The notes below the pieces were generated by a model. It saw only the letters and a program-made list of their open reading frames with translations, ran no database searches and was not told the DNA's origin. Shown here one piece after another: positions 2,503-32,858 of a DNA stretch of 32,858 nucleotides (position 1 is the first letter of the stretch; each line of letters begins with the position of its first letter). A program made the translations under genes and the position numbers. The DNA is taken from the NCBI GenBank assembly GCA_900547155.1, contig URFH01000030.1, positions 1 to 32,858 on the forward strand. Reading direction: 5' to 3'. This DNA is from an uncultured bacterium. GTDB taxonomy: Bacteria > Cyanobacteriota > Vampirovibrionia > Gastranaerophilales > Gastranaerophilaceae.

Positions 2503-4602
2503 TTATAACCCTTTTATAAATTCAATAGTGCCGAAAAAGTCTAAATTTGAATCAGCATATGATTTGTTTAAAATATTATCCGGTAAAAGATAATCAAATT
2601 TATTTTTCATCTTTTTGGTTCTTTCATACTTTGATAGCAAATCTTGTATACTTAATGTACTGAAATCGATTGACTTTAATGCATTAATCAAAAATATTTT
2701 TCCTTCAGATGCTTTAAAACCAATTGGTAACTTTTCTACATTCATCTCCATGTAATCAAATAAAACACACAGTGTATTTTGGATTCTGCTGCCACCAAAT
2801 ACAGGTAAAACCAGACTGTCTTTTGCTTGAATATTCGTTGAATATTCGTAAAAAATATTTTTTAGAATATGAATAGAATTTTTTGCTAAATAAGATGGAA
2901 TAAAATTACTTTCATATATGAATTTCATTTTTTCATGTATTTTCGGGTGTATTAATTGTGCATCCCCGTCAAAGCTAATTTTTCCTTTATCAAATGAACG
3001 TTTTACCTGTATTGTTCTCGTATCTTCATTAACTTCTGTGATTTCCCACCTTTTAGCGGCAAATATAAAATTTTTACCGGGTTTAAGAGATAATAAATTA
3101 ATTTCATGAATTTTTCCTAATTCTTTTCCATTATTGAAAATACGCCATTCAACAGGTGTATCGAATGAAGCATAAAACTTATAATTTTCAACAATTTTTT
3201 CACCGAGTCTGTCAAGCGTTATAGAATTACTCTCTGTTTGATATATAATCTGTTCATCTTTCAAATTTTTTAATATTTCAATAAAATCACCGGAAGAAAA
3301 CTTTGAGTTAAATGACTTTATTCCAATATTTTCATATATATTCAGTGCTGTATCACCACCGGTTTGACCTAGATATGATAGAATTTGATGCACAAATGTT
3401 GAATAATCATAGATATTGGCGTCTAATGGTTCACACCAGCCTTCAAGCATTAATTCAACAATCGCAATGCTTTGAATCAGTTCAAATTTAAGTTTTTCAT
3501 ATAAAGTATCGTTTTCTGAATCATATGGTAAAAGAAATCGAAATTCTTTAACTGCATCTTCTTTCCGGCCGCTTCTTCCAAGCCTTTGGATAAATGACGA
3601 TACACTAAAGGGCGGAGATAAAAATACTACTCTTTTTATGTTTCCAATATCTATTCCCAATTCCAGTGTGTTCGTGCAAAAAACTGACAAATTCTTTTCT
3701 TTTTTCAGCAAGGCTTCTGTTTCTTCTCTGATATTTTTAGATAGAGAACCATGGTGGATTTTATAAATATCAGGATACGCATTTTTCTTTGCTATTACTT
3801 TCATTGAGTCGCAATAAAACTCAAGAGACATTTTATTATTAGCAAAAATTAAATTTTTGTCTTTTTTGACTGCATTAAAAAGTTCATTTTCAATTTCCTC
3901 ACCGTTGCACATCTTTATTAATCCTGATACACCCTTAGATGTATCATTATCACAAATAATTTTAACACTTGATGGATCTTGAGGATTAAGCCATTCTGAA
4001 ATACTTTCAGGATTATAAACAGTGGCACTAAGCCCAATTTTTGTTGGATGTTTTTTTATATTATTTTCCAACCTTGCTAACAGACTCCGAAGATGTGTTC
4101 CTCTTGGATTTTCAATAAAATAATGTATTTCATCAATTATTATATAATCAAGTTCTCTAAACATCGCAACAAGTTTATCAAAACGGTTTAAAAATAAAGC
4201 TTCCAGGGATTCCGGAGTAATTAATAAAATCCCGCCCGGCTTTTTTAATAATTTCGCTTTTGCACTTGAATTAGCATCTCCATGCCACTTGGTTATTGGA
4301 AAGTCAATTTTTTCACATAATTGTTCTACTCTTTTAAACTGATCATTTATAAGAGCTTTTAATGGTGATATATATAAAACCTTAACTGATTTTTCAGGAT
4401 TTTTATCAATAATATCAGAAATAACAGGTAGAAATGCAGCTTCTGTTTTCCCGCTTGCTGTAGGTGCACATATTAGCATATCAGATTTGTTTGTTAATAA
4501 AGAAGATACAGCATCATCCTGGATTGGCCTGAATTCTGACCAACCTAAATTCCAGATAGCTTTTTGTATTTTAGGATGCAATAAATCAAAAGTTGTTGTC
4601 AT
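2503..4602 (-). CDS. sngC: Lhr-like DEAD/DEAH helicase, Shango component SngC
   Basis: This is a superfamily 2 helicase of 699 residues. It shows a Q-like motif FRPIQ (24-28), motif I APTASGKTEA (46-55), motif Ia SPLKAL (79-84), TPESLE (129-134), motif II DEIH (157-160) and motif III SAT (192-194). Later in the second RecA domain come GIDIGNIKRVV and QRLGRSGRK, motifs V and VI. The C-terminal 300 residues resemble the Lhr/BrxHII extension, although the protein is shorter than full-length Lhr. It starts 6 nt after the stop of the ATPase gene, so it is the last gene of a three-gene operon. TerB protein, BrxD-like ATPase and this helicase together match the Shango anti-phage system; I infer DNA unwinding or translocation as its role. 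BREX type II also pairs BrxD with BrxHII, but no PglX, PglZ or BrxC is visible here. Confidence 0.92.
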   Translation of the reverse strand: MTTTFDLLHPKIQKAIWNLGWSEFRPIQDDAVSSLLTNKSDMLICAPTASGKTEAAFLPVISDIIDKNPEKSVKVLYISPLKALINDQFKRVEQLCEKIDFPITKWHGDANSSAKAKLLKKPGGILLITPESLEALFLNRFDKLVAMFRELDYIIIDEIHYFIENPRGTHLRSLLARLENNIKKHPTKIGLSATVYNPESISEWLNPQDPSSVKIICDNDTSKGVSGLIKMCNGEEIENELFNAVKKDKNLIFANNKMSLEFYCDSMKVIAKKNAYPDIYKIHHGSLSKNIREETEALLKKEKNLSVFCTNTLELGIDIGNIKRVVFLSPPFSVSSFIQRLGRSGRKEDAVKEFRFLLPYDSENDTLYEKLKFELIQSIAIVELMLEGWCEPLDANIYDYSTFVHQILSYLGQTGGDTALNIYENIGIKSFNSKFSSGDFIEILKNLKDEQIIYQTESNSITLDRLGEKIVENYKFYASFDTPVEWRIFNNGKELGKIHEINLLSLKPGKNFIFAAKRWEITEVNEDTRTIQVKRSFDKGKISFDGDAQLIHPKIHEKMKFIYESNFIPSYLAKNSIHILKNIFYEYSTNIQAKDSLVLPVFGGSRIQNTLCVLFDYMEMNVEKLPIGFKASEGKIFLINALKSIDFSTLSIQDLLSKYERTKKMKNKFDYLLPDNILNKSYADSNLDFFGTIEFIKGL

Positions 4603-4608
4603 TTAAAC

Positions 4609-5880
4609 CTAAATTCTTAAATTTACCAGTTCGTTATCAATATTCTCTTCTGTTTGAATTGTGCACTGACCTAGATAATCTTCTATTTTAGTATCAGGAT
4701 AATTTTCTAACTGAGTTAATAGCCCTACAAAACTTTTAATAGATTCCCGGGGGGTAAGAAATGCTTTTGCACCTAAACGTTGAACTATCCAATTTAAAAA
4801 ATATTCTATTTGCTGATCTGTAACAAGAAAATTATCTTCACATCCTGAAGCAAAAACATTCCTTATATTTATAAAAAGAATATATAATTCTTCTTGTGTA
4901 AGATTTTTTAGTCTAATCACAGGTCCGGATAAATCTTCCATACCTTCTTTTGAAAAAGGATTTTCAGCAAGTCTTGTTTCTAATGCACCATAACTATACA
5001 TACCCTTGTATTTATCTTCCAGAAATTCAGGTGTACCGCCAAAAATAAATCCTAAATTTTCTGTTGTGCCTTGAAGAGAATCATTGATAATTGTGAGCAT
5101 CCTTTCAAAATTTTTATTTCTTACAGTTGATTTCAAACGAGACAATATTGCCAGTTCATCAATATTGACTATAAGACCGGCATATCCTGCTAACTTAACA
5201 AAGCCGGCATATAGTTTTAAATAATCATAAAAGTTTTCATCATCAATTATTGTTCTCACGCCTAAATCACTTTTTGCTTCTGTTTTTGTTGTGTATTCTG
5301 CCTTTAACCATCTTAAAGCTTGTGACATTTTTATATCATCACATTGTTTATAAGCATCTATATATGCGTGCAGAACCTTACTAAAATCATAACAAGATAC
5401 ATATTTTTCTAAAGGAGAGAGAAGTTTATGAATTTTTTCCTCTGTTAAGTTTTCATCTGAAATTATTTTAGCTGCCCAATTTTCAATTACGGATTTTAAA
5501 GCATTGCCATCCGGGCTTGTCTTTGTTGACATATTAGAAATGAGTTCAGAAAACAAGGCTCTTGTCTTTCCATCAGAAGAACAAAGAACTTTTTCTGTTG
5601 TAATGTCAGCAGATAGAACAACAAAGTTTTTCTCATGTGCAATCAATTTTGCTAACGTGAGAAAGAAAGTTTTTCCACTGCCAAATTCACCTATAATAAA
5701 TCTTGTCTTTGAAGCACCGTCTGAAATTAACTCGAAATCGTTAAGCATTTCCTTAATTTCTTTTGCTCTGCCTACCTGGATATGCTGCAATCCTATCTTA
5801 GGAACAATACCTGCTTTTAAAGAATTTATAATTGCAGTTCTTTCACGATTTTTTATTTTAACAGCTGCTTCTTTAGCCAT
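4609..5880 (-). CDS. sngB: BrxD-like (DUF2791) ATPase, Shango component SngB
   Basis: This is a P-loop ATPase of 423 residues. Walker A is GEFGSGKT (64-71), Walker B is LIVNIDELA (236-244), and GGTPEF (281-286) fits sensor 1. The arrangement matches BrxD/DUF2791 ATPases, which accompany helicases in phage-defence operons. The start is well supported: the ATG follows GGAAAGG, with the upstream gene stopping 6 nt before it. The downstream gene likewise starts 6 nt after its stop, which implies stoichiometric co-expression of all three proteins. In the Shango layout this is the middle gene. Its biochemical partner and trigger are not visible in the sequence. An alternative family name would be AAA ATPase of unknown function; the motif set makes ATP binding very likely. 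Confidence 0.92.
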   Translation of the reverse strand: MAKEAAVKIKNRERTAIINSLKAGIVPKIGLQHIQVGRAKEIKEMLNDFELISDGASKTRFIIGEFGSGKTFFLTLAKLIAHEKNFVVLSADITTEKVLCSSDGKTRALFSELISNMSTKTSPDGNALKSVIENWAAKIISDENLTEEKIHKLLSPLEKYVSCYDFSKVLHAYIDAYKQCDDIKMSQALRWLKAEYTTKTEAKSDLGVRTIIDDENFYDYLKLYAGFVKLAGYAGLIVNIDELAILSRLKSTVRNKNFERMLTIINDSLQGTTENLGFIFGGTPEFLEDKYKGMYSYGALETRLAENPFSKEGMEDLSGPVIRLKNLTQEELYILFINIRNVFASGCEDNFLVTDQQIEYFLNWIVQRLGAKAFLTPRESIKSFVGLLTQLENYPDTKIEDYLGQCTIQTEENIDNELVNLRI

Positions 5881-5886
5881 ATCTTA

Positions 5887-8103
5887 TTACCTTTCCAAAT
5901 TTGATTGCACTGCTTGCATGATTTCTGAATTTAAGTTGATTTTATTGCCATTATTTTCTATTAAAAAATCTCCAAATTCATTATCTGTCCATTCATTTAT
6001 TTTATCGATAGCATTATTTAACATAAGCTTTAAATTTTTACAGATATTTTTTAGTTCAATTGTTTCCCATTCTTCTTTTTCCAAAATAATTTTTGCGAAT
6101 TCCAAATATCTCTCATCTATTGTATCATTATTTTCGACATTTTGCTTTGTAGATGTTATTTCTATTGCCTCAGTTTGTGATTCTTCTTCAAAAATAGTAT
6201 TTAAAACATTTTGTATTTCTTTTGTATCAACCATTAAATCTGAAATTTTTTCTTTATTTAATGAAATTTGAATTTTAGACTCAGTTGGTTTTATTGGTAT
6301 TTTAGAACCTTTTCTTGTTTTTGAAGAAGGACTTTTTACTATTATATTATCTTCTGAGGTTATTTCATTTAACAACCTGTCTAAATAATCATCAGCTAAA
6401 CCCAGTTTCTTAAAATACTTTTTTAACAATTTATATTCTTCGGGTTGTACCATATTATCTGATGCGGCAACCGAAATTAAATACTTACAAAATTTTTCAA
6501 GGTTTATGTCATTGATTCTGGAAAGTAGTTTCTTTGTAATATCAGATGTTGTTATATCTTGCGTTTCCTCAATTAGTTCAGCCTTACATTTCAAACGTTC
6601 TTTAGCAGAAGAAGTTAAAGCAAAATTATTGAAAACATATTGTATTATATAATTTTTTTCAATATCAAGCAGTTTTGTATCTTCTAAAGCTATTTGGAAA
6701 CCGCAATCAAGATATATTGCAGGAATTAAATAATTAAGAGAAGCTTGTGACTCGATTTTTTCAGGTTTAAATACTTTTACTTTTTGTTCAAAATTATAAG
6801 GCTTATTCAAAACTCGTGCATCAGGTTCAATAGCATATCCGGCGCTTTCATAGCAATCAACAAGGAATTTTGAATGTGTAATAGTGTGTTTTTCCGGGAA
6901 TTTTATACCTGTTAACTCAATCAATTTTTTAATAGTAAATGTATTCTGATTTTCCATATAAGTATCGAAAAGTTTCTGCAACGGATGGTCAATTTCTTTT
7001 TTGAGTTTTTCAGGCAAAAGAATGTATTTCTCAATTTCACAAAGCTTTTCCGTTGTACCGTCAAATTTTCTTATGCTGTTTGGAAAACGACAGCTATTCC
7101 ATTTCTTTTTGCAAGAACGATATATTGAAATAAAAGCATCAGAAGGAACTATTTCATAGTATTCAACAGGTGAAAAATTAAATCTCATAGAAGATGCTTG
7201 ATAATAATTAAACTGTACAGATTTCTTATAAAAAAGATTTGTATCTTTAAAACCATCTATTATTTTAGATAAATAATAAACAAATATCTCTTTTTTTCTT
7301 CCTTGAATATTGAAACGATTATCATTATAAATAAGTTTTTTTACAGCACTATCATAATCAAAGGAAATATTTCCAGTTAAATTTAGAATAAGGCTTTCTT
7401 TATCAAAATAATAACCGTATGGTATATTTTTTATAAAGTTAAGTATTGAAGATTTTTTTTCTTCAGAAAAGTATTTTATCTTATATATTAAATATGAAAT
7501 CAAGCTCAATGAATAGTTTTGAAAAGAATGATAATGATAAATTTGGGCTAAACGAATAAGCTCAAATAATATTTCTTCAAGGTTTTGTTGCTCTTTTAAT
7601 GCTCTATATTCAAGCCCATAGTAATAAATAAAAACATACCCAATATCTATATCAGGATCTTTTTTTCCAGATGCAAGCCATTTTATAAAAATGCCTTTTT
7701 GCAATGATGTTAAACCAGTAAAACTGGGCCAATAGTTCAACTTTTCATTATTATTTGTACTACCAAATTCAACTTTTGTATTATTCGAAACCATAAAGGG
7801 AATTTGATAGTCAGAATAATTGCTTATGTAAATCATTGGATTTGTTATTTTATAACCATACAACTCAATATCATCATTATTAATAAACTGCATGTTTTGC
7901 TTTTTTGATAGATTTGATATAGGGGCAGAATAAGAGTCGGGTTCAATGTTATTTTTTCTAATATTATTATGTTCATTATTTTTTTCTGAATCTGCAGAAG
8001 CTAAACTCCATATCAGAAAAGGAATAAACAACCAAAATAATTTTGGATATGCACAACAAATAAAAAATAGTATTAATAGAAATAGACAACCGCAACCTTG
8101 CAT
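5887..8103 (-). CDS. sngA: TerB-domain membrane protein, Shango component SngA
   Basis: The protein has 738 residues and begins with a hydrophobic, Cys-rich hairpin of about 30 residues (5-36) that should place it in the inner membrane. A TerB_N-like domain follows around 100-290, with WPSFTGLTSLQKGIFIKWL at 125-143. A TerB-like helical core lies near 495-585, including ISVAASDNMVQPEEY (543-557), where acidic residues could bind a metal. A TerB_C-like tail occupies about 660-735, with an INEW and GDFLIE pattern. TerB_N, TerB and TerB_C in one chain are known from Ter-linked stress and defence proteins, and TerB proteins head Shango operons. It is the first gene of the operon. A TATAAT-like -10 lies on the minus strand at 8136-8141, and the start has only a weak ribosome-binding site. 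Confidence 0.92.
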   Translation of the reverse strand: MQGCGCLFLLILFFICCAYPKLFWLFIPFLIWSLASADSEKNNEHNNIRKNNIEPDSYSAPISNLSKKQNMQFINNDDIELYGYKITNPMIYISNYSDYQIPFMVSNNTKVEFGSTNNNEKLNYWPSFTGLTSLQKGIFIKWLASGKKDPDIDIGYVFIYYYGLEYRALKEQQNLEEILFELIRLAQIYHYHSFQNYSLSLISYLIYKIKYFSEEKKSSILNFIKNIPYGYYFDKESLILNLTGNISFDYDSAVKKLIYNDNRFNIQGRKKEIFVYYLSKIIDGFKDTNLFYKKSVQFNYYQASSMRFNFSPVEYYEIVPSDAFISIYRSCKKKWNSCRFPNSIRKFDGTTEKLCEIEKYILLPEKLKKEIDHPLQKLFDTYMENQNTFTIKKLIELTGIKFPEKHTITHSKFLVDCYESAGYAIEPDARVLNKPYNFEQKVKVFKPEKIESQASLNYLIPAIYLDCGFQIALEDTKLLDIEKNYIIQYVFNNFALTSSAKERLKCKAELIEETQDITTSDITKKLLSRINDINLEKFCKYLISVAASDNMVQPEEYKLLKKYFKKLGLADDYLDRLLNEITSEDNIIVKSPSSKTRKGSKIPIKPTESKIQISLNKEKISDLMVDTKEIQNVLNTIFEEESQTEAIEITSTKQNVENNDTIDERYLEFAKIILEKEEWETIELKNICKNLKLMLNNAIDKINEWTDNEFGDFLIENNGNKINLNSEIMQAVQSNLER

Positions 8104-20391: not shown

Positions 20392-23300
20392 ATGACTTTT
20401 GTTAATAAATCGGAAATAGCAAGGCAAATAGCTTCAGCAGAAGGACTTTCGGGTGCAGCTCTGGAAAGCCGCGCAAAAACCCTTGAAAGCTTGAGCGAAA
20501 AAGCCCTGAATGAAAAGCTCCAATCGACTTTGAACGGCAGCGCGCAGAAATCTGAGGAATTGGAATCTGATGGCTGGGATTACCTCGGAGTGGAGGTCGA
20601 GGGTAAAAAATCTTTGCCTGAAAAGGATTTCGGGCTGCTTCAACCGCTGAGTTATGAAGAATCAAAAGATTTGGCGCTAAATTCGCTTTTTCAAGATACC
20701 GAAACCGGCATGAAACTGCTGACAAACACGGATAACGGAGCTGTAAGCAAACTATATGAATCCTGGAAACAGTGTGAGGGCTCTTTTCTTTCTCTGCCGT
20801 CGACTGTCAGGGCTATACATTTGCAGGAAAAATCAAATTTAATCTTAGAAGAAGCCAGAGCCGGCCGGCTCACAAAAAATTCCTACTATGAAATGCTTAA
20901 AGGAACTCTTCTGGAAATATATCCGAGTGTTGAGTCAAAATCTGATGAAGAAAAACAAGAATTAGCAGAAAAAATAGGCACTTTGAGCCCGTCAAAGCTA
21001 AAACGCTGGCAGGACAATGTTCTTCGCTTGCCCAGAGAGGGTACGGAGCGCTATGCTGACGCTGTTAGGGAATTTGAAAACCTTTTTGAAATGGAAACTA
21101 CCGATGAGGAAACAAAAATCGTCAAAAACGGCGACGGTCAAACCCTGCTGAACGAAACAAAACGCCTACCAAAGCCACAGTATGAGCTAAAATCCGGCAC
21201 AGGCGATGAAATTTTGACTTTTGAACAGGCTTACAGGCTTGAGCGCGGAATTGAGTTTTCGCAGGAGAAAGTTACCGAATTTAGCGAAAAAAGTATGATT
21301 TACCAGCTTGTGGAATCCAAGGGCAGGGAGCTCGATGAGATAAAATCTGCCCTAAAATCGCCGCTGGCGCTTGTTAAGGGCAATTCCCAATCCGCAGTTC
21401 CTCCGGAAGTTATTGAGCGTTCAAATCAACAGCTGGAAACCGCCCTCTACAGCTCTTTAGCTTCATTGTACGGTGATGATGAAAAGGCTTTGAATAAAGG
21501 GTTGCAGGATTTGTCGGGATTTGAGGGGCTTGTTTTTGAAAACGGACGCCTGAAAAACAAAGTAAAATCCCCGAACCCGCTTTTTGGCGAAAATATGCCC
21601 GTTCCTTATGCACAGGCAGCCGAAAATGTAATAAAAAGCCTCGACAAAAACTACAATGCCCTGCTAAACGGCAAATCCCGCGAACAATACGCTGAAGAAT
21701 ATGCCCGGAGCTACGCAGAGGCGTACGGAAAAAACAACGCCTCAAAACTTGCCAGGGCATATATAAATGACCAGCAGGAAGCCGTCCAGAGCATTCGTTC
21801 GGGCGTGGAATATCTGGGTGCGGGGCTTATGGTCGGCGGAATGCTTGTATTTCCTCCGGCGGCGCTCGTCGGTGGCGGAATTTCTACATTTGGCGGGGCC
21901 GGAATCGAACTTTTAGACGAATCCACAAAAAAACGTCCGGATTCAGAAAAAATAGATGAATTGAAAAAAGAAATGTTTACCAACGGGCTCCTTATGGGCG
22001 TTGGTATGGGCGCAAGCAAGGTCGGTCAGGCTATATTTGCAAGAGCAGCTAATTCCTCAATGCTTGCTATAAGCGCTGCAACCGTTGCAGATTACGGTGT
22101 AGATATTGCGATTAGTCTGGTGGGTGATTTAGCTTTGACAGGACAGATAAGCCTTGAGGGCGAGGGTTTTTCACAGGCTATGGCGCTTATTGCCGGTCAT
22201 AAAAATAAAATTGTGAAATATGTGCGAAAAGGCGCTCATTCTGCAATGAATTTTGCTTCTTCGGCCATTTCTCCGCGAAAAACAGCTTATATTTCCCGAA
22301 TGTCCAAATTTACGGATTCTTCCGGAAAGCCTGTTTTCAGCGATTTTGCCCTGAAACAAATGGCGAAAACCTATGGTGAAAAAAATTTGGACAAAATCCC
22401 CCGGATTTATGAAAAAGTCATGGAAAAAACCGACAATATTGAGGTTTTTAATGAAGCTATTTCAAATCCCGCGATTGCCAAATCTAAAAATCTGAAACTT
22501 CTTGAAGATATTTTGAATGTGAATGATGAAAATGCGTCTGCCGGAGAGTTTAAAAGGCTTTTCGCAAGTATAAATGAAAAAAATGTTGAATATTATGAAA
22601 CCATTGTCGACGCGGTAAAAAAACGCGGGAATGACAGTGAAATTTACAGAATTATGCAGGCTGCGGATTGGGTAAATAAAGAAAATTTTCCGGCGCTGAA
22701 AAAGGCGCTTGAAGCAAAATCTCCCGATGGAAATTACAAGCTTTTCATCTCTGATATTCCTTATTTTTGTAAACAAAATTACAAAATATACGGTTCGGAC
22801 AAACTTTCCGAGGAAACGAAAGATTTCTTGCTTTGCAGGCACCTTGCCACTGAAGAGATTTGTACCGCAATTGAAGTGTGCCCGAAAGATTCAAAGTTCA
22901 TAAAAGAGCTGAATTCTGCCAATTCTGATGATTTTGATGTAAAAAAACTCGAAAAACTTGCCATTGAGGCTATTGAAGAAGATGTTTTGCGCATTGCACC
23001 CGACAAAAAGCTCAAAAACAAGCTCAATACGTATTTTAACGATGAAGCTGTCAATAAAAGAATTAGTTCTGTAGAAATACACGATTATCTTACAGGTATA
23101 GACCAAATTTCCGACCCGACATTGAAAATTTCTGCCAGAAGAAACTTTGACGCAGCAATTGACGGGATTTTGCTGAATTCCGGCAAGGATTTCGGCGCCA
23201 ATCTCACAGAAATCAATGAGATGATAAAACTGGATGAGATTTTGAGCGGAAAAAGACCTGCGGATGGCACTGTCGAGGAGTATTTTGAAAAATTACGGCA

Positions 23301-25218
23301 AAATAACCCTCAAAAAGCACAAAAAATGCTTAATTTGTTAGAAAATTCCGCCCCTCAACACAAAAGCCGCTTTCAAAAAATTAAAGAAAAACTTTTTGGC
23401 ACCAAAACTCAGAATTTAGAAGATTTGGAAATTTCCGACGTAGAAATGAGGGATTTGAAATTCGATAAGGAATTTGCGCCTATAAAAGAATGGATAGCCA
23501 ACTGTTCTGACCCGAAAGCCGCTGCCCGTATGTACGAAACAAAATACCTCAGCCGCCTTTCGCCCGCAGCGCGTGAAATTGCTGCAAAAATCGATAAAGA
23601 TTTCGGCACAAAAGTCTTTATGAGCGATACAAACAACCCCGAATCCCTCCAGCTTATCTACAACGAACTTCTGGAATGGAAAAAAGCCGGAAAACAGGAT
23701 GTTAAATTCCCTAAAGTTATTGATTGTACAAAAATTGATGAATTGTATGTGAATAGCACTTCTGTTGCTTATCACCAGCATGATGGTAAAAAACTTTCGT
23801 TTTCATCGAGCGAATCTGATGAGATTTTGTTTGCATTGCGTCATGAAATGATGCACGAAAATGATTCTTATATAGATTTTGATTTTGGCGTATGGAACAG
23901 GGTGAATTCTGAATATATTATCAAGAATAAAAAATACTACGATGAAATTCAATACGGACTTGCGGCAAATGACATAAATCCTGCTCATGCAGATTATGCC
24001 TACACAAATCGTAAAGAATTTCTTGCTGTTGCGGCCGAGGGCGATTATTCTGTATATTCTGATGAATTCAAAGATGTTCTCGTCAAACTGGGAATGCCGC
24101 AATGGGTTCTTAAAATGCAAAACAAACAGAATATCGGCACAAAAACCCAGATTTATTCACATCCTGAGTATTCTAAAAAATACAACGACCTCCAGAATGC
24201 GAGAATCTCAGCCAGCGCCCGAAATATGTACGTAGAAGCCGTAAATTCAATCGACGGTGTTAAAAAGGATTATTCAGAAATCTTCACCTCTGTTCAGGAC
24301 GCAAAATTCATGTCCAGAGTTAAGGATATGGACAAGGTTTTCGAAAAACATTACAGGCGCCTTGAATCCTTTGATAAACAAATCAAAAAAGTAATAAAAT
24401 CCGGCGAACTTACGTCCGAAGAAATCGCAGCGGGCAAAAAACCGCGTACTTCCGAACAAATAAATGCTGAAATAGCGCGTTTGCAGGCCTTAAAAGAGGA
24501 AGCTTTGAACGATTTGCAAAAAATCCGTGATGATATTCAAGATACCATCGGTGCAAGAATCGTAATGGACGATTGTTCGGAGCTCGCCACGGACAAAGTC
24601 GTTTATGACCTTATAAATGCAATTGATGAGGGCAAAATTGAGGTTTTGTCACTGGAAAACTATTGCGGTGACGGGCTCAAACCTTATTTTTCGAGTACAC
24701 AAATCAAAAAAATCAGAATGCACTGCCGCGCAAAGGGTTATGACCCTGTCATAACCTCGGTCGTCAACAGGTCGACGACCGCAAAAATGGACTATGAGGC
24801 TGTTTTTAACTCAAAAGACGCGCTGAAACCCTCCGGTTATACAACCGCACAGCTGAATATAAAACATAAAAACGGCGCAATAAGCGAGCTTCAAATACGC
24901 GGAAAAGCCATAAATGAACTCGCTGAAAGCGAACATATTATCTATGATTTTAAAGAAGGCAAGGATTTGATTGGCGAAAACCCCCAAAAATCCAAACTTC
25001 TGGGCGATGTAGAAAAAGCCGTTGCCGATATCTACAAAGCAGGCAATGAAAACAAGCAAAAAGCCTACTCCGCATACCTGACACAATGTTACGAATACGC
25101 AAGAAAATCCGAACTCAATGAACCCGCCCAAAAACCTGTTCTTCCTGCGGGAATCGACCCCTCGCTCGACATGGACAACATTATCCGTATCCACAAAGAG
25201 CTTGGTAAGTTAAAATAA
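20392..25218 (+). CDS. Giant protein with HExxH motif and C-terminal RelA/SpoT-like nucleotidyltransferase
   Basis: From the ATG at 20392 (GGAAG upstream) the protein has 1608 residues; the 23 earlier in-frame codons lack a ribosome site. The first 470 residues are helical and unrecognised. Gly-rich hydrophobic segments lie at about 474-505 and 530-585 and could insert in a membrane. H1151-E-M-M-H1155 is a zinc-metallopeptidase motif, with acidic residues following. The C-terminus matches RelA/SpoT synthetases: SRVK (1308-1311), DTIGAR (1384-1389), GY (1482-1483) and ELQIR (1499-1503) correspond to the ATP-binding Arg/Lys, metal-binding Asp, base-stacking Tyr and catalytic Glu, then EHIIYD. 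The His after GY is replaced by Gln. There is no hydrolase, TGS or ACT domain. A secreted or intracellular toxin making (p)ppGpp, (p)ppApp or modifying RNA is plausible but inferred. Confidence 0.88.
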   Translation: MTFVNKSEIARQIASAEGLSGAALESRAKTLESLSEKALNEKLQSTLNGSAQKSEELESDGWDYLGVEVEGKKSLPEKDFGLLQPLSYEESKDLALNSLFQDTETGMKLLTNTDNGAVSKLYESWKQCEGSFLSLPSTVRAIHLQEKSNLILEEARAGRLTKNSYYEMLKGTLLEIYPSVESKSDEEKQELAEKIGTLSPSKLKRWQDNVLRLPREGTERYADAVREFENLFEMETTDEETKIVKNGDGQTLLNETKRLPKPQYELKSGTGDEILTFEQAYRLERGIEFSQEKVTEFSEKSMIYQLVESKGRELDEIKSALKSPLALVKGNSQSAVPPEVIERSNQQLETALYSSLASLYGDDEKALNKGLQDLSGFEGLVFENGRLKNKVKSPNPLFGENMPVPYAQAAENVIKSLDKNYNALLNGKSREQYAEEYARSYAEAYGKNNASKLARAYINDQQEAVQSIRSGVEYLGAGLMVGGMLVFPPAALVGGGISTFGGAGIELLDESTKKRPDSEKIDELKKEMFTNGLLMGVGMGASKVGQAIFARAANSSMLAISAATVADYGVDIAISLVGDLALTGQISLEGEGFSQAMALIAGHKNKIVKYVRKGAHSAMNFASSAISPRKTAYISRMSKFTDSSGKPVFSDFALKQMAKTYGEKNLDKIPRIYEKVMEKTDNIEVFNEAISNPAIAKSKNLKLLEDILNVNDENASAGEFKRLFASINEKNVEYYETIVDAVKKRGNDSEIYRIMQAADWVNKENFPALKKALEAKSPDGNYKLFISDIPYFCKQNYKIYGSDKLSEETKDFLLCRHLATEEICTAIEVCPKDSKFIKELNSANSDDFDVKKLEKLAIEAIEEDVLRIAPDKKLKNKLNTYFNDEAVNKRISSVEIHDYLTGIDQISDPTLKISARRNFDAAIDGILLNSGKDFGANLTEINEMIKLDEILSGKRPADGTVEEYFEKLRQNNPQKAQKMLNLLENSAPQHKSRFQKIKEKLFGTKTQNLEDLEISDVEMRDLKFDKEFAPIKEWIANCSDPKAAARMYETKYLSRLSPAAREIAAKIDKDFGTKVFMSDTNNPESLQLIYNELLEWKKAGKQDVKFPKVIDCTKIDELYVNSTSVAYHQHDGKKLSFSSSESDEILFALRHEMMHENDSYIDFDFGVWNRVNSEYIIKNKKYYDEIQYGLAANDINPAHADYAYTNRKEFLAVAAEGDYSVYSDEFKDVLVKLGMPQWVLKMQNKQNIGTKTQIYSHPEYSKKYNDLQNARISASARNMYVEAVNSIDGVKKDYSEIFTSVQDAKFMSRVKDMDKVFEKHYRRLESFDKQIKKVIKSGELTSEEIAAGKKPRTSEQINAEIARLQALKEEALNDLQKIRDDIQDTIGARIVMDDCSELATDKVVYDLINAIDEGKIEVLSLENYCGDGLKPYFSSTQIKKIRMHCRAKGYDPVITSVVNRSTTAKMDYEAVFNSKDALKPSGYTTAQLNIKHKNGAISELQIRGKAINELAESEHIIYDFKEGKDLIGENPQKSKLLGDVEKAVADIYKAGNENKQKAYSAYLTQCYEYARKSELNEPAQKPVLPAGIDPSLDMDNIIRIHKELGKLK

Positions 25219-25254: not shown

Positions 25255-25683
25255 ATGGAAATAAACAAAACACAAAACCCCGCCAATGTTTCACAAACAG
25301 GCTTTAAATCAGCCCCGAAAGGAGAACCTGTGGAAAAAATTCAGGAATTTTTGAGCAATTTTATTAACCGCGCAGAGTTTGAGCTTTCTGATGTGGGCTA
25401 TTTTCGTGCGATTAGCTCGGAATTCGTGAATGACAACCCTTTGCGCTACGTTGGAACAGTAAAGCTGACGCTTTCTCCCGAAAATTCTTCTACAAAATGC
25501 AAAAACCGCATTCTGGAAGCTTTTGTAACCGATGAAACCGGCAAATATGAAACCTCAAAAGTCCTCAAAGAGGGCGGGCGCGGTGAACTTCTTGAATATT
25601 TGAAATCCGGCAATGCTGCGCGTGAACTTGAGGATTATATAACCCGAACAAGCGACAGATTTTTTACAATGGAGAATATGTAG
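25255..25683 (+). CDS. Small protein downstream of the giant RelA/SpoT-like gene
   Basis: This 142-residue protein has no recognised domain, signal peptide or membrane helix. The N-terminus is Asn/Gln-rich (up to about residue 20) and is followed by a helix (VEKIQEFLSNFINRAEFEL) and a predicted beta-rich middle (RYVGTVKLTLS). It starts 36 nt after the giant gene with only a distant AGAGG, so it is probably on the same transcript. By position it could be an immunity protein, chaperone or accessory factor for the giant protein. That is inference from adjacency only. Confidence 0.7.
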   Translation: MEINKTQNPANVSQTGFKSAPKGEPVEKIQEFLSNFINRAEFELSDVGYFRAISSEFVNDNPLRYVGTVKLTLSPENSSTKCKNRILEAFVTDETGKYETSKVLKEGGRGELLEYLKSGNAARELEDYITRTSDRFFTMENM

Positions 25684-29434: not shown

Positions 29435-32400
29435 ATGAAGTCAAGCGATAAAAAAACACTAATATTTTTTATTGCCTCGATTCTAATGGGGGCAGCTCCG
29501 GCCTGCGCAAATACCGAAACCGGCTCAATCCCCCCCGAAATAACAGATATAAACTTGAACAATACTGGCGTTTTTGAGGTTGATGAAGACACTTCTTCAG
29601 AATTAGTTACAAAAAACTCTGAAGAACCCAGAAAACCGCCCGTCCCAACAAACACTGACGGCAAAAACCAAACTCTGGGCGAATTAGCTGCTAATTCGGT
29701 GTCGGATTTGTCCGCAAATCCGACACAAATCTCCTCTGAAACGAAAGAAGAGGCTGTTCAAGCCGAAAATTCGGAGGAATCTGCAAGTGTAGCAAATCAG
29801 CAGCAGGTTTTAAGCACATATTCGCTTGCTTCTGCCGGCCCTGTGGCTGCTGCGACATATTCTGTCCTGAGTGATTCGGGAATATCTCTCTATGCTGCTA
29901 CTTCTGCCGGCGATGTCAATTCTACTCAAAAGATTGAAAACACTTCATATGGCAGTAAATCCTCGCAGATTCTCAGTTTTGGTTATAATTATGATTCTTA
30001 CGGCCCGTGTGTATTGCAAAGCGGCTCGAGTTTTACTGTCAACCTTGGAACAAACATTGGCTCCAGCCACAATACAACGGTCAGCCTACTTAATGATTAT
30101 TATGGTATATCCTATTCTTCTGATGTTGCTGATGATACGGTCAACGGTGTTTCAGTGCCGATGGGCGGAGCTCTATGTTTAAAAAGCGGCTCTTTTTCAA
30201 TTTCTAACTCTTTTGTAAATAACACAATTCAATCAAGCTCCGGTTCTCCATATGGAGGTGCCATAGGCGCAACCGATTCAGTTCTTTATATAAGTTCTTC
30301 CAACTTTATCAACAACAGATCTTTGAAAAGCGATTCAATTTCCCGTTCTGCTGGAGGCGGCGCAATTTACATAGGGAAAGGTACGAATGCAACCATTAAC
30401 TCTACTAATTTCATAGGGAACCGTGCTGTTTATACCGGTTCAACGATTAGCTCTTCCAGCGGTGGTGCAATAAAAGCTCTGGACGCTTCACCATTGAGCA
30501 TATCTGGCAGTTACTTTAGGGCAAATCTGGCTTATGGTCAATCTTACAACGGTCAGGGCGGTGCAATCGCCAGTGAAAAGGGAAAAGTTATAGTTTCTTC
30601 TACCACATTTTATGACAACTGGGCTGTTTCCGGCTCCTCTCTCTATAATGCCAGAGGTGGTGCTATCCATACATATTCCGGATGTGTAGAAATTACGTCA
30701 TCTTCATTCTTAAACAATAAAGCAAGTGCACCCGGAGCAAATGCGTGGGGAGGTGCCATTGCTCTGGAAGACTTTGCAATGGATTCTTATATTAAAGATA
30801 GTGACTTTTACAAAAACTCCGCGGACGGTCAATTTGGCTGCGGAGGAGCTATTTCTGCTGTATCAACTATTGCCGTAAACCTGGATATTGATAGCTCTAT
30901 ATTCCGTGAAAACATGGCTAGCTCCAATGGCGGAGCTTTATATCTGAATACTACTACAACAATTGATGATTCAAATTTTTATGGCAATTCAGCTATTTAT
31001 GGCGGTGCAATCTACAATGAGGGGTCGCTTTCAGTATCAAATAGCGAATTTTCTGATAATGTAGCCTCGACGGTTTTAGGCGGAGCTATTTATAATGAGG
31101 GAGCTTTGTATTTATCCGGTACAAATATTTTTCGCGGAAATACTGGTACAACCAACACAGGATACACGCTGCGCAATGATATTTACATTTCGGGTGGTGA
31201 TGTAACCTTTATGTCGGGCAGTACAAACCGATTATATAATGGTTTGGGCGGTGATTCTAATGTTTACTTTGCGACTGGAAGTAATACCTATATCTATGGA
31301 AAAATAAATGACACAGCCTCTTTTCAAGGAGCTCTTAACTTTAACGGCGGTAATTTGTATATGCCTGAACAGTTTTATTTCATGCCAAATTCAATAATTG
31401 TAGATGGCGGTGGTTTACTGCATATTCAAAATGATTATATTGACACTGTTTCCGCATCGCGTCTTCTTGTGAACTCCGGTACTTTGGGTGTTTACATTGA
31501 TGCTGATTTAGCAAATTCTCGATGCGATAATTTTGATTTCAGCTTCGCGCCCACAATCAGGGATGATATAGTTGTGAGCGGCATACACATTATGTCTGAC
31601 GGTACAGACAAAAAAACATATACTACACTTGTCAAAAATTCTAACTCTTACGAATTATTTAGGCTGGACAACGTTATTGATATCAGCTATGCCTCCGGAC
31701 TAAAGGGAACTTACGTAATTACCTATGATAACACCACAGGCCAGCTTATATTTAACAAAGACGGCGGCTCTCTTAAAGAAACAATAAATGAAACAAGCCC
31801 TCTAACACGTATTTACGATATGTCCGAAGCCGAAAACGTAGAAGCTACAATAGGCGCCATGGGCGGAGACGGCTCAACAGTCACTGTAAACGGTAACGGC
31901 TATGCCGTAAACGGAAATGGCTACGGCGGCGTTGAATTCGCCATACAAGGCAACCAAACCCTCAATATAAATAATGTATCTGATTGGAACGGTTTTGTTG
32001 CCAAAGATGGCGGCGCTATAAGAGTTTGGCATGGCACTTTGAATGTTACAAATACGAAATTTTCTAATAACCGAGCCCAAGGCGGTGATTATGGTGTTTC
32101 GGCCGGGGGAGCCATAGATATTGAATCTGGCGTCGTGAATATATCTGATAGTTCTTTTGTGAACAATTATTCAGAGAGTTTAGGCTCTGCAATTTATGCG
32201 GCTACACTTACCGGTTACACGCAATCAAAGTTAACTGTTTCAAACACCTTATTTGAATCTAATTCGGGTGCACCTGCCGTAGGCGTTAGTAACACTATAA
32301 GCTCCTTTACAGATTGCACTTTTACAAATAACACAAACGGCGACATGATAATTTTTAACGGGTCAGCAACAATTACGGCCCAAAATAAAGACGTTGTTTT

Positions 32401-32858
32401 CAATCATACTGGCAATCATACAAATATTCATCTACAAAATACGGATACAAGTGGTCTTGAGGTGTATTTTAATGGCCCCAAAAACATCTATTTGAACCAG
32501 GGAATGAAGTATTACTTTCTAAATGGCGGCTCTGCTTCTGTATATAAACAAGGAAATGGCACCCTGTATTTGTATGGTCAAAAATTTCTCAATGAAACTG
32601 ACAAACAATATGATCTCAAAAACTATAACGGAAATGTCTATATCCAAGGCGGAAAAATCCTCTTTACAAAAACATCTGCGGATGTTGGCTCCTACTTTGG
32701 CGGCACAACAACAATCAGCAACGGCGCCACACTGGAATACAACACAACAGTATCCGATACCCTGGCCGCCACGCTAACCGGAAGCGGCTCCTTCATAAAA
32801 TCCGGCACGGGCACGCTAACCATAACCGGCAACCAAAGCGGCTACAGCGGCCAGAGCA
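29435..32858 (+). CDS. Autotransporter-type surface protein with Pmp-like beta-helix repeats (C-terminus outside window)
   Basis: The frame is open for 1141 codons to the window edge. A signal peptide (SSDKKTLIFFIASILMGAAPACA) ends at about residue 26. A low-complexity Glu/Ser/Thr-rich linker runs to about 150. Then many repeats pair GGAI with a following SxFxxN (GGALCLKSG...NSFVNN, GGAIYIGKG...TNFIGN and so on), the signature of chlamydial polymorphic outer-membrane proteins, which form a beta-helix adhesin stalk. Near the end LTGSGSFIKSGTGTLTITG is an autotransporter-associated beta-strand (PATR) repeat. A C-terminal beta-barrel is expected beyond the window but not seen. There is no strong ribosome-binding site at the ATG (29435), only GAGAG about 10 nt before. 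Probable role: adhesion or host contact. Confidence 0.9.
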   Translation, partial: MKSSDKKTLIFFIASILMGAAPACANTETGSIPPEITDINLNNTGVFEVDEDTSSELVTKNSEEPRKPPVPTNTDGKNQTLGELAANSVSDLSANPTQISSETKEEAVQAENSEESASVANQQQVLSTYSLASAGPVAAATYSVLSDSGISLYAATSAGDVNSTQKIENTSYGSKSSQILSFGYNYDSYGPCVLQSGSSFTVNLGTNIGSSHNTTVSLLNDYYGISYSSDVADDTVNGVSVPMGGALCLKSGSFSISNSFVNNTIQSSSGSPYGGAIGATDSVLYISSSNFINNRSLKSDSISRSAGGGAIYIGKGTNATINSTNFIGNRAVYTGSTISSSSGGAIKALDASPLSISGSYFRANLAYGQSYNGQGGAIASEKGKVIVSSTTFYDNWAVSGSSLYNARGGAIHTYSGCVEITSSSFLNNKASAPGANAWGGAIALEDFAMDSYIKDSDFYKNSADGQFGCGGAISAVSTIAVNLDIDSSIFRENMASSNGGALYLNTTTTIDDSNFYGNSAIYGGAIYNEGSLSVSNSEFSDNVASTVLGGAIYNEGALYLSGTNIFRGNTGTTNTGYTLRNDIYISGGDVTFMSGSTNRLYNGLGGDSNVYFATGSNTYIYGKINDTASFQGALNFNGGNLYMPEQFYFMPNSIIVDGGGLLHIQNDYIDTVSASRLLVNSGTLGVYIDADLANSRCDNFDFSFAPTIRDDIVVSGIHIMSDGTDKKTYTTLVKNSNSYELFRLDNVIDISYASGLKGTYVITYDNTTGQLIFNKDGGSLKETINETSPLTRIYDMSEAENVEATIGAMGGDGSTVTVNGNGYAVNGNGYGGVEFAIQGNQTLNINNVSDWNGFVAKDGGAIRVWHGTLNVTNTKFSNNRAQGGDYGVSAGGAIDIESGVVNISDSSFVNNYSESLGSAIYAATLTGYTQSKLTVSNTLFESNSGAPAVGVSNTISSFTDCTFTNNTNGDMIIFNGSATITAQNKDVVFNHTGNHTNIHLQNTDTSGLEVYFNGPKNIYLNQGMKYYFLNGGSASVYKQGNGTLYLYGQKFLNETDKQYDLKNYNGNVYIQGGKILFTKTSADVGSYFGGTTTISNGATLEYNTTVSDTLAATLTGSGSFIKSGTGTLTITGNQSGYSGQS

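Follow-up and report, generated by a model that had tools for sequence, protein, structure and literature searches.

A giant modular protein with an alarmone-synthetase-like tip and a small partner gene: a probable polymorphic multi-effector protein of a Gastranaerophilales bacterium

One question raised by contig URFH01000030.1 of an uncultured Gastranaerophilaceae bacterium (assembly GCA_900547155.1), analysed here over positions 1 to 32,858 (the whole stretch, hereafter the window), is what a RelA/SpoT homologue (RSH) synthetase domain is doing at the end of a 1608-residue protein that also carries an HExxH motif. The original prediction took the protein for a self-processing polymorphic toxin composed of a long N-terminus, a pore-like part, a peptidase and a toxin tip. 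Our reading, to which we give a probability of about 0.6, is that this Gastranaerophilales protein is polymorphic and probably multi-effector, ends in an RSH tip and has a partner encoded immediately downstream. The parts of the locus are as follows:

20392..25218, + strand: giant modular protein, 1608 aa; homologues of similar length exist
20392..20571, + strand: N-terminal ~60 residues with an AEGLSG motif, common to giants of different make-up
21679..22251, + strand: conserved trunk, residues 430-620, including the hydrophobic stretch 475-493
22339..23511, + strand: poorly conserved middle part, residues 650-1040
23512..24141, + strand: zincin-type peptidase module, residues 1041-1250
23842..23856, + strand: HEMMH, residues 1151-1155
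24199..25215, + strand: RSH (alarmone-synthetase-like) tip, residues 1270-1608
24316..24348, + strand: RVK...EK motif of the tip, R1309-K1319
24541..24543, + strand: D1384 of the tip
24826..24840, + strand: K1479 to Y1483 of the tip
24886..24888, + strand: E1499 of the tip
25255..25683, + strand: partner gene, 142 aa, starting 36 bp past the stop of the giant

The tip (residues 1270-1608) showed the synthetase (nucleotidyltransferase) fold of RSH enzymes, and the catalytic Arg/Lys, Asp, Tyr and Glu of these synthetases were all present, which confirmed that the giant joins a peptidase-like part to an RSH domain with intact catalytic positions. Among homologous stretches, Y1483 was Tyr and E1499 was Glu in 86 of 86, D1384 was Asp in 78 of the 83 without a gap, and position 1479 held Lys in 60 of 90, Arg in 14 and Gln in 7. 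By analogy, we take the RVK...EK motif to bind ATP, D1384 to bind the metal, Y1483 to stack on the base and E1499 to be the catalytic Glu. The window protein scored 13.5 bits against RelA_SpoT (PF04607, gathering score 27); relatives P0031, L022 and L013 lay above the gathering score and L023 and L025 just below it, whereas L018 had no match to the family. The giant P0001 did not match the NCBIfam Rel model (TIGR00691). Of 60 genomes of the order, 56 had a separate canonical Rel above the cut-off, including the RSH-giant carriers G001, G026, G028 and G051, indicating that the RSH module of the giant is not the housekeeping Rel; in G017, G018, G027 and G029 the canonical Rel was not above the cut-off or was present in pieces only.

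A survey of homologues for variable C-terminal domains, the check that the first reading had proposed, yielded several different tips. The same trunk module ended in an RSH tip in the window and in locus L001, and in a kinase-like tip in L060, L062 and L065. The latter was named by us from a glycine-rich loop, VVLK and HNIINGKIIDYGD, which we take to be kinase motifs; Pfam gave no kinase match for it. L063 ended in a PRTase-CE domain (PF24390, 1.3e-16), L044 and L047 had a common unnamed tip (56% identity), and L045 and L046 carried further tips with no Pfam match above the cut-off. The tip of L040-L042 is a zincin by our own reading of HEFGH, for which Pfam returned only a sub-threshold Reprolysin_3 match (0.14). 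The RSH module forms the tail of the window protein as had been described, but nine of the 74 RSH-bearing genes that precede a partner had it in an internal position.

A further element is the partner gene. A same-strand open reading frame (ORF) of 137-149 aa lay right after the RSH gene in the window, in L001 and in 20 further regions (L032-L051), and BLASTP joined 21 of these 22 partners; that of L051 stayed unlinked and was placed in alignment A1 by size and position, so that its later profile match is circular. A partner was found downstream of 134 of the 146 listed RSH ORFs: in 109 it was a listed match on the same strand within 10 kb, and of the remaining 37 (regions L092-L128) 25 had it by profile and 12 did not. 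Among the regions lacking it, two (L092 and L094) are cut off by the end of the contig, and a third, L096, stops near one. The distance between the giant or RSH gene and the partner was -31 to 83 bp in 78 of 80 cases. As a separate observation, the RSH ORFs of L101, L116, L124, L126, L127 and L128 (305-398 aa), which are not followed by this family, perhaps form a branch with other partners.

Viewed from the partner, 110 of 150 listed members had a listed RSH ORF upstream. Among the other 40 (L052-L091), an RSH match was present upstream in 28 (a fragment in L058) and a kinase-like tip preceded the partner in six (L060, L061, L062, L064, L065 and L069). The L052 partner followed a 195-aa zincin-like ORF, which is separate from the preceding ORF and shares 95% identity with the L041 tip. 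The partners of L053, L054 and L057 begin near a contig end, and no recognised effector gene was seen ahead of those of L059 and L066; the orphan of L066 lies behind a gene that we read as adenylate-kinase-like.

Immunity specific to RSH, considered for the partner, was dropped, as kinase-like, zincin and PRTase-CE tips adjoin the same family. This breadth, together with the well-kept size and predicted fold of the partner (in the window a helix, four strands and two helices, with residues 1-24 disordered), would suit a general export chaperone or adaptor for the giants, any protection that is needed coming from elsewhere. We consider this unlikely, since in the traced cases the clade of a partner goes with the tip, and since the partner also adjoins RSH genes of 437-474 aa that showed no trunk. 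It was, moreover, absent among the matches listed beside most peptidase ORFs without a listed RSH, where weak partners may have been missed: of 62 such peptidase rows, two had a partner within 20 kb downstream, one in G140, which also carries RSH, and one in G130, where the partner sits behind a separate RSH gene. Foldseek and VIA-align returned no convincing relative of the partner fold, and the rows listed did not include the Tas1 immunity protein.

The traced cases come from an IQ-TREE phylogeny of 41 of 85 partners. One clade (100/99) contained the partners of the kinase-tipped L060, L061, L062, L064, L065 and L069 plus that of L043, and a second (99/98) those of L040, L041, L042 and L052, with zincin tips. 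Forcing the L043 partner into the second clade was rejected (p-AU 1.4e-6, an optimistic value, the group having been chosen after a first FastTree). L043 has an internal RSH module and a kinase-like tip, and by FastTree its RSH module groups with that of L042 (0.97) and with those of L040-L042 (1.0). With the RSH module in one group and the partner in the other, we conclude that the tip changed and the partner along with it. This single case fits immunity, and also plain linkage at the 3' end of the gene.

The giant and its partner might also be an intracellular toxin-antitoxin unit resembling toxSAS, the giant staying in the cell. Short RSH relatives with a partner do exist in the family, but the window protein, with its 1608 residues and several modules, differs from small stand-alone toxSAS enzymes such as CapRel (PDB 7ztb), and multi-module proteins of 1600-4366 aa with exchangeable tips are unlike a toxin-antitoxin layout. 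In PADLOC the RSH piece had a single weak match, to a system of a different kind (0.011, CARF_HEPN), and the partner had no match. We hold this explanation to be highly improbable.

One further point is the role of the peptidase module. Residues 1041-1250 had both HExxH and a zincin fold; E1209 and E1216 (KEFLAVAAEGD, downstream of HEMMH) were as invariant as HEMMH itself in a 9-row alignment, and the closest solved fold was that of an effector protease (modest Z). The module resembles lethal-factor-type zincins, compared by description only, in HExxH and fold, and differs from them in its ~16% identity and lack of a Pfam match. Its position was not constant. A homologue search with residues 1050-1608 gave 37 proteins, including the window's own: the peptidase preceded RSH in P0001-P0029, followed it as the last module in P0030 and P0031, accompanied a more distant RSH in P0032 and occurred with no RSH match in P0033-P0037. 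The module shared an ORF with a listed RSH in 18 of the 80 peptidase rows used and was present in 17 of the 146 listed RSH ORFs; it occurred twice within P0010 and L047, and also in ORFs of ~450-500 aa. Hence a dedicated processing enzyme was rejected as a general rule, the placement being inconstant and mostly outside ORFs with a listed RSH, and the self-processing protease supposed to lie between trunk and tip was not borne out. A membrane pore was likewise rejected, as the hydropathy of stretch 475-493 was no higher than that of shuffled sequences. Thus, of the polymorphic-toxin order first proposed, the trunk with exchangeable RSH and kinase-like tips and the small gene right after the tip were retained, and the pore and the self-processing peptidase were not. 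Among the 37 proteins, the middle part (residues 650-1040) had BLASTP matches in P0001-P0009 and, with 21% identity, in P0029. Two side observations concern the modules: ORFs of 6621, 6282 and 5693 aa (G105:C4, G331:C11 and G283:C24) carry one or two zincin modules, and an extra region of P0010 (~860-1040) with an STS...E pattern is a candidate ADP-ribosyltransferase, for which Pfam gave no match.

The giant might be directed at eukaryotic host or protist cells, the zincin and RSH modules acting as host effectors and the partner as a secretion chaperone. This we regard as improbable, because it is more typically interbacterial toxins that have a small gene right behind them, and because none of 60 genomes had VirB4. 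In its favour are the modest zincin fold match and the RelA/SpoT domains of plant-directed XopAD effectors, mentioned in the part of PMC3482391 covered here.

As to export, Pfam gave no known export or trafficking domain in the giant, and a phage-type sheath was present in 10 of 60 genomes. The N-terminal ~60 residues are, we infer, the best candidate export or assembly segment, with the trunk as a candidate trafficking part alongside. This segment matched 21 of 146 genomes at E<=0.01 (31 rows), 22 of the rows in ORFs of 949-6621 aa and nine in ORFs of 53-307 aa. A lineage-wide N-terminal signal 'F[KSRNTQHG][GSA]' was discarded, since its density was just slightly raised over the first 20 residues (64 matches; 6.4 per 1000 positions there and 2.6-4.5 in later bins). 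Export through the adjoining TolC was not supported, because TolC and the giant lie apart in L001.

Locus L001, from a Candidatus Gastranaerophilales metagenome assembly, was the sole related one obtained by the contig search. The giant and its partner lie between TolC and a MerR-like gene in the window and between YhcH and HpcH in L001, and the order of the surrounding genes is otherwise unchanged. Any of three events could account for this: relocation, two insertions, or the loss of alternate copies. Identity between the two loci was 88-94% for the EF-hand, TolC and MerR-like neighbours, 78% for YhcH, 70% for FolC, 42% for HpcH, 61% for the giant and 65% for the partner, so that the pair diverges faster than most, though not all, of its neighbours. 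Elsewhere, the giant L046 and the short RSH genes L048 and L049 adjoin the same two gene families, one glyoxalase-like by our reading and one of ~370 aa. Phage carriage was also considered and set aside: patterns from alignment A2 picked out 35 stretches in viral contigs, among which one tblastn scan found no relative. In 383 genomes of the order of G001, a subset of a larger group, matches were obtained in 269 for the RSH piece, in 78 for the peptidase profile and in 206 for the partner profile; canonical Rel enzymes may be counted in the 269, among the weaker, unlisted matches.

Other genes of the window were also recorded. On the - strand, 2503-8103 holds a DEAD/Lhr-like helicase, a BrxC/BrxD-type ATPase (PF10923, 4.5e-135) and an adjacent TerB-domain protein, perhaps a defence cluster by our reading, and 1-2418 an AAA/STAND-like NTPase cut by the window end. 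An autotransporter-like protein with Chlamydia-PMP repeats (2.6e-10) occupies 29435-32857 and is open at the window end.

Several described systems are comparable. Exported alarmone synthetases (EAS; mBio 2025, PMC12691689), described only recently, are tied in the portion of that article covered here to Sec, type VII secretion, XopAD-type, MuF, DUF4157 and PAAR parts; a term search of its main text found 'Cyanobacteri' and 'Gastranaero' nowhere. The giant differs from EAS (SaEAS, PDB 8vx3) in being multi-module, with no Pfam export domain found, and from the type VI secretion effector Tas1/Apk1 with its immunity protein (PDB 6ox6) in having no recognised part of that system and a partner family that adjoins non-RSH tips as well. 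The covered part of Zhang 2012 (PMC3482391) describes RelA/SpoT and ALF-type (ALF-metallopeptidase) toxin domains and, in actinobacteria, giant proteins that combine several toxin domains; it also describes immunity families, supposed to serve as many as 27 types of toxin. As far as that part goes, the giants resemble those polymorphic toxins in variable C-terminal enzymes, common N-terminal parts and an adjacent small gene, and differ in lineage, in an unrecognised trafficking part, in an RSH module that is sometimes internal and in a single partner family across several tips. A secretion-term search of PMC5877343 found 'effector' absent, and the listings covered for literature on toxins, effectors and secretion in Gastranaerophilales/Melainabacteria and on RelA/SpoT polymorphic toxins showed nothing on these giants.

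If our reading holds, the giant would be exported from the Gastranaerophilales cell, and in a target cell its RSH tip would make (p)ppGpp, (p)ppApp or pyrophosphorylated RNA and halt growth. The peptidase might be a second effector or a processing unit, and the partner would shield the producer from the tip or, less likely, escort the tip as a chaperone. More tentatively, at somewhat less than even odds, the family may be an order-wide armoury, so far undescribed, of modular effectors that combine several enzymes and leave the cell by an unrecognised route, in which one partner family of ~140 aa has diversified to neutralise unrelated tips (alarmone synthetase, kinase-like, zincin and PRTase) and tip and partner are swapped as a cassette. 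If this is true, these gut bacteria, known here chiefly from metagenome assemblies, possess a large and rapidly evolving arsenal whose parts can be read in the sequence, and a single small protein family could be examined for how it deals with unrelated enzymes.
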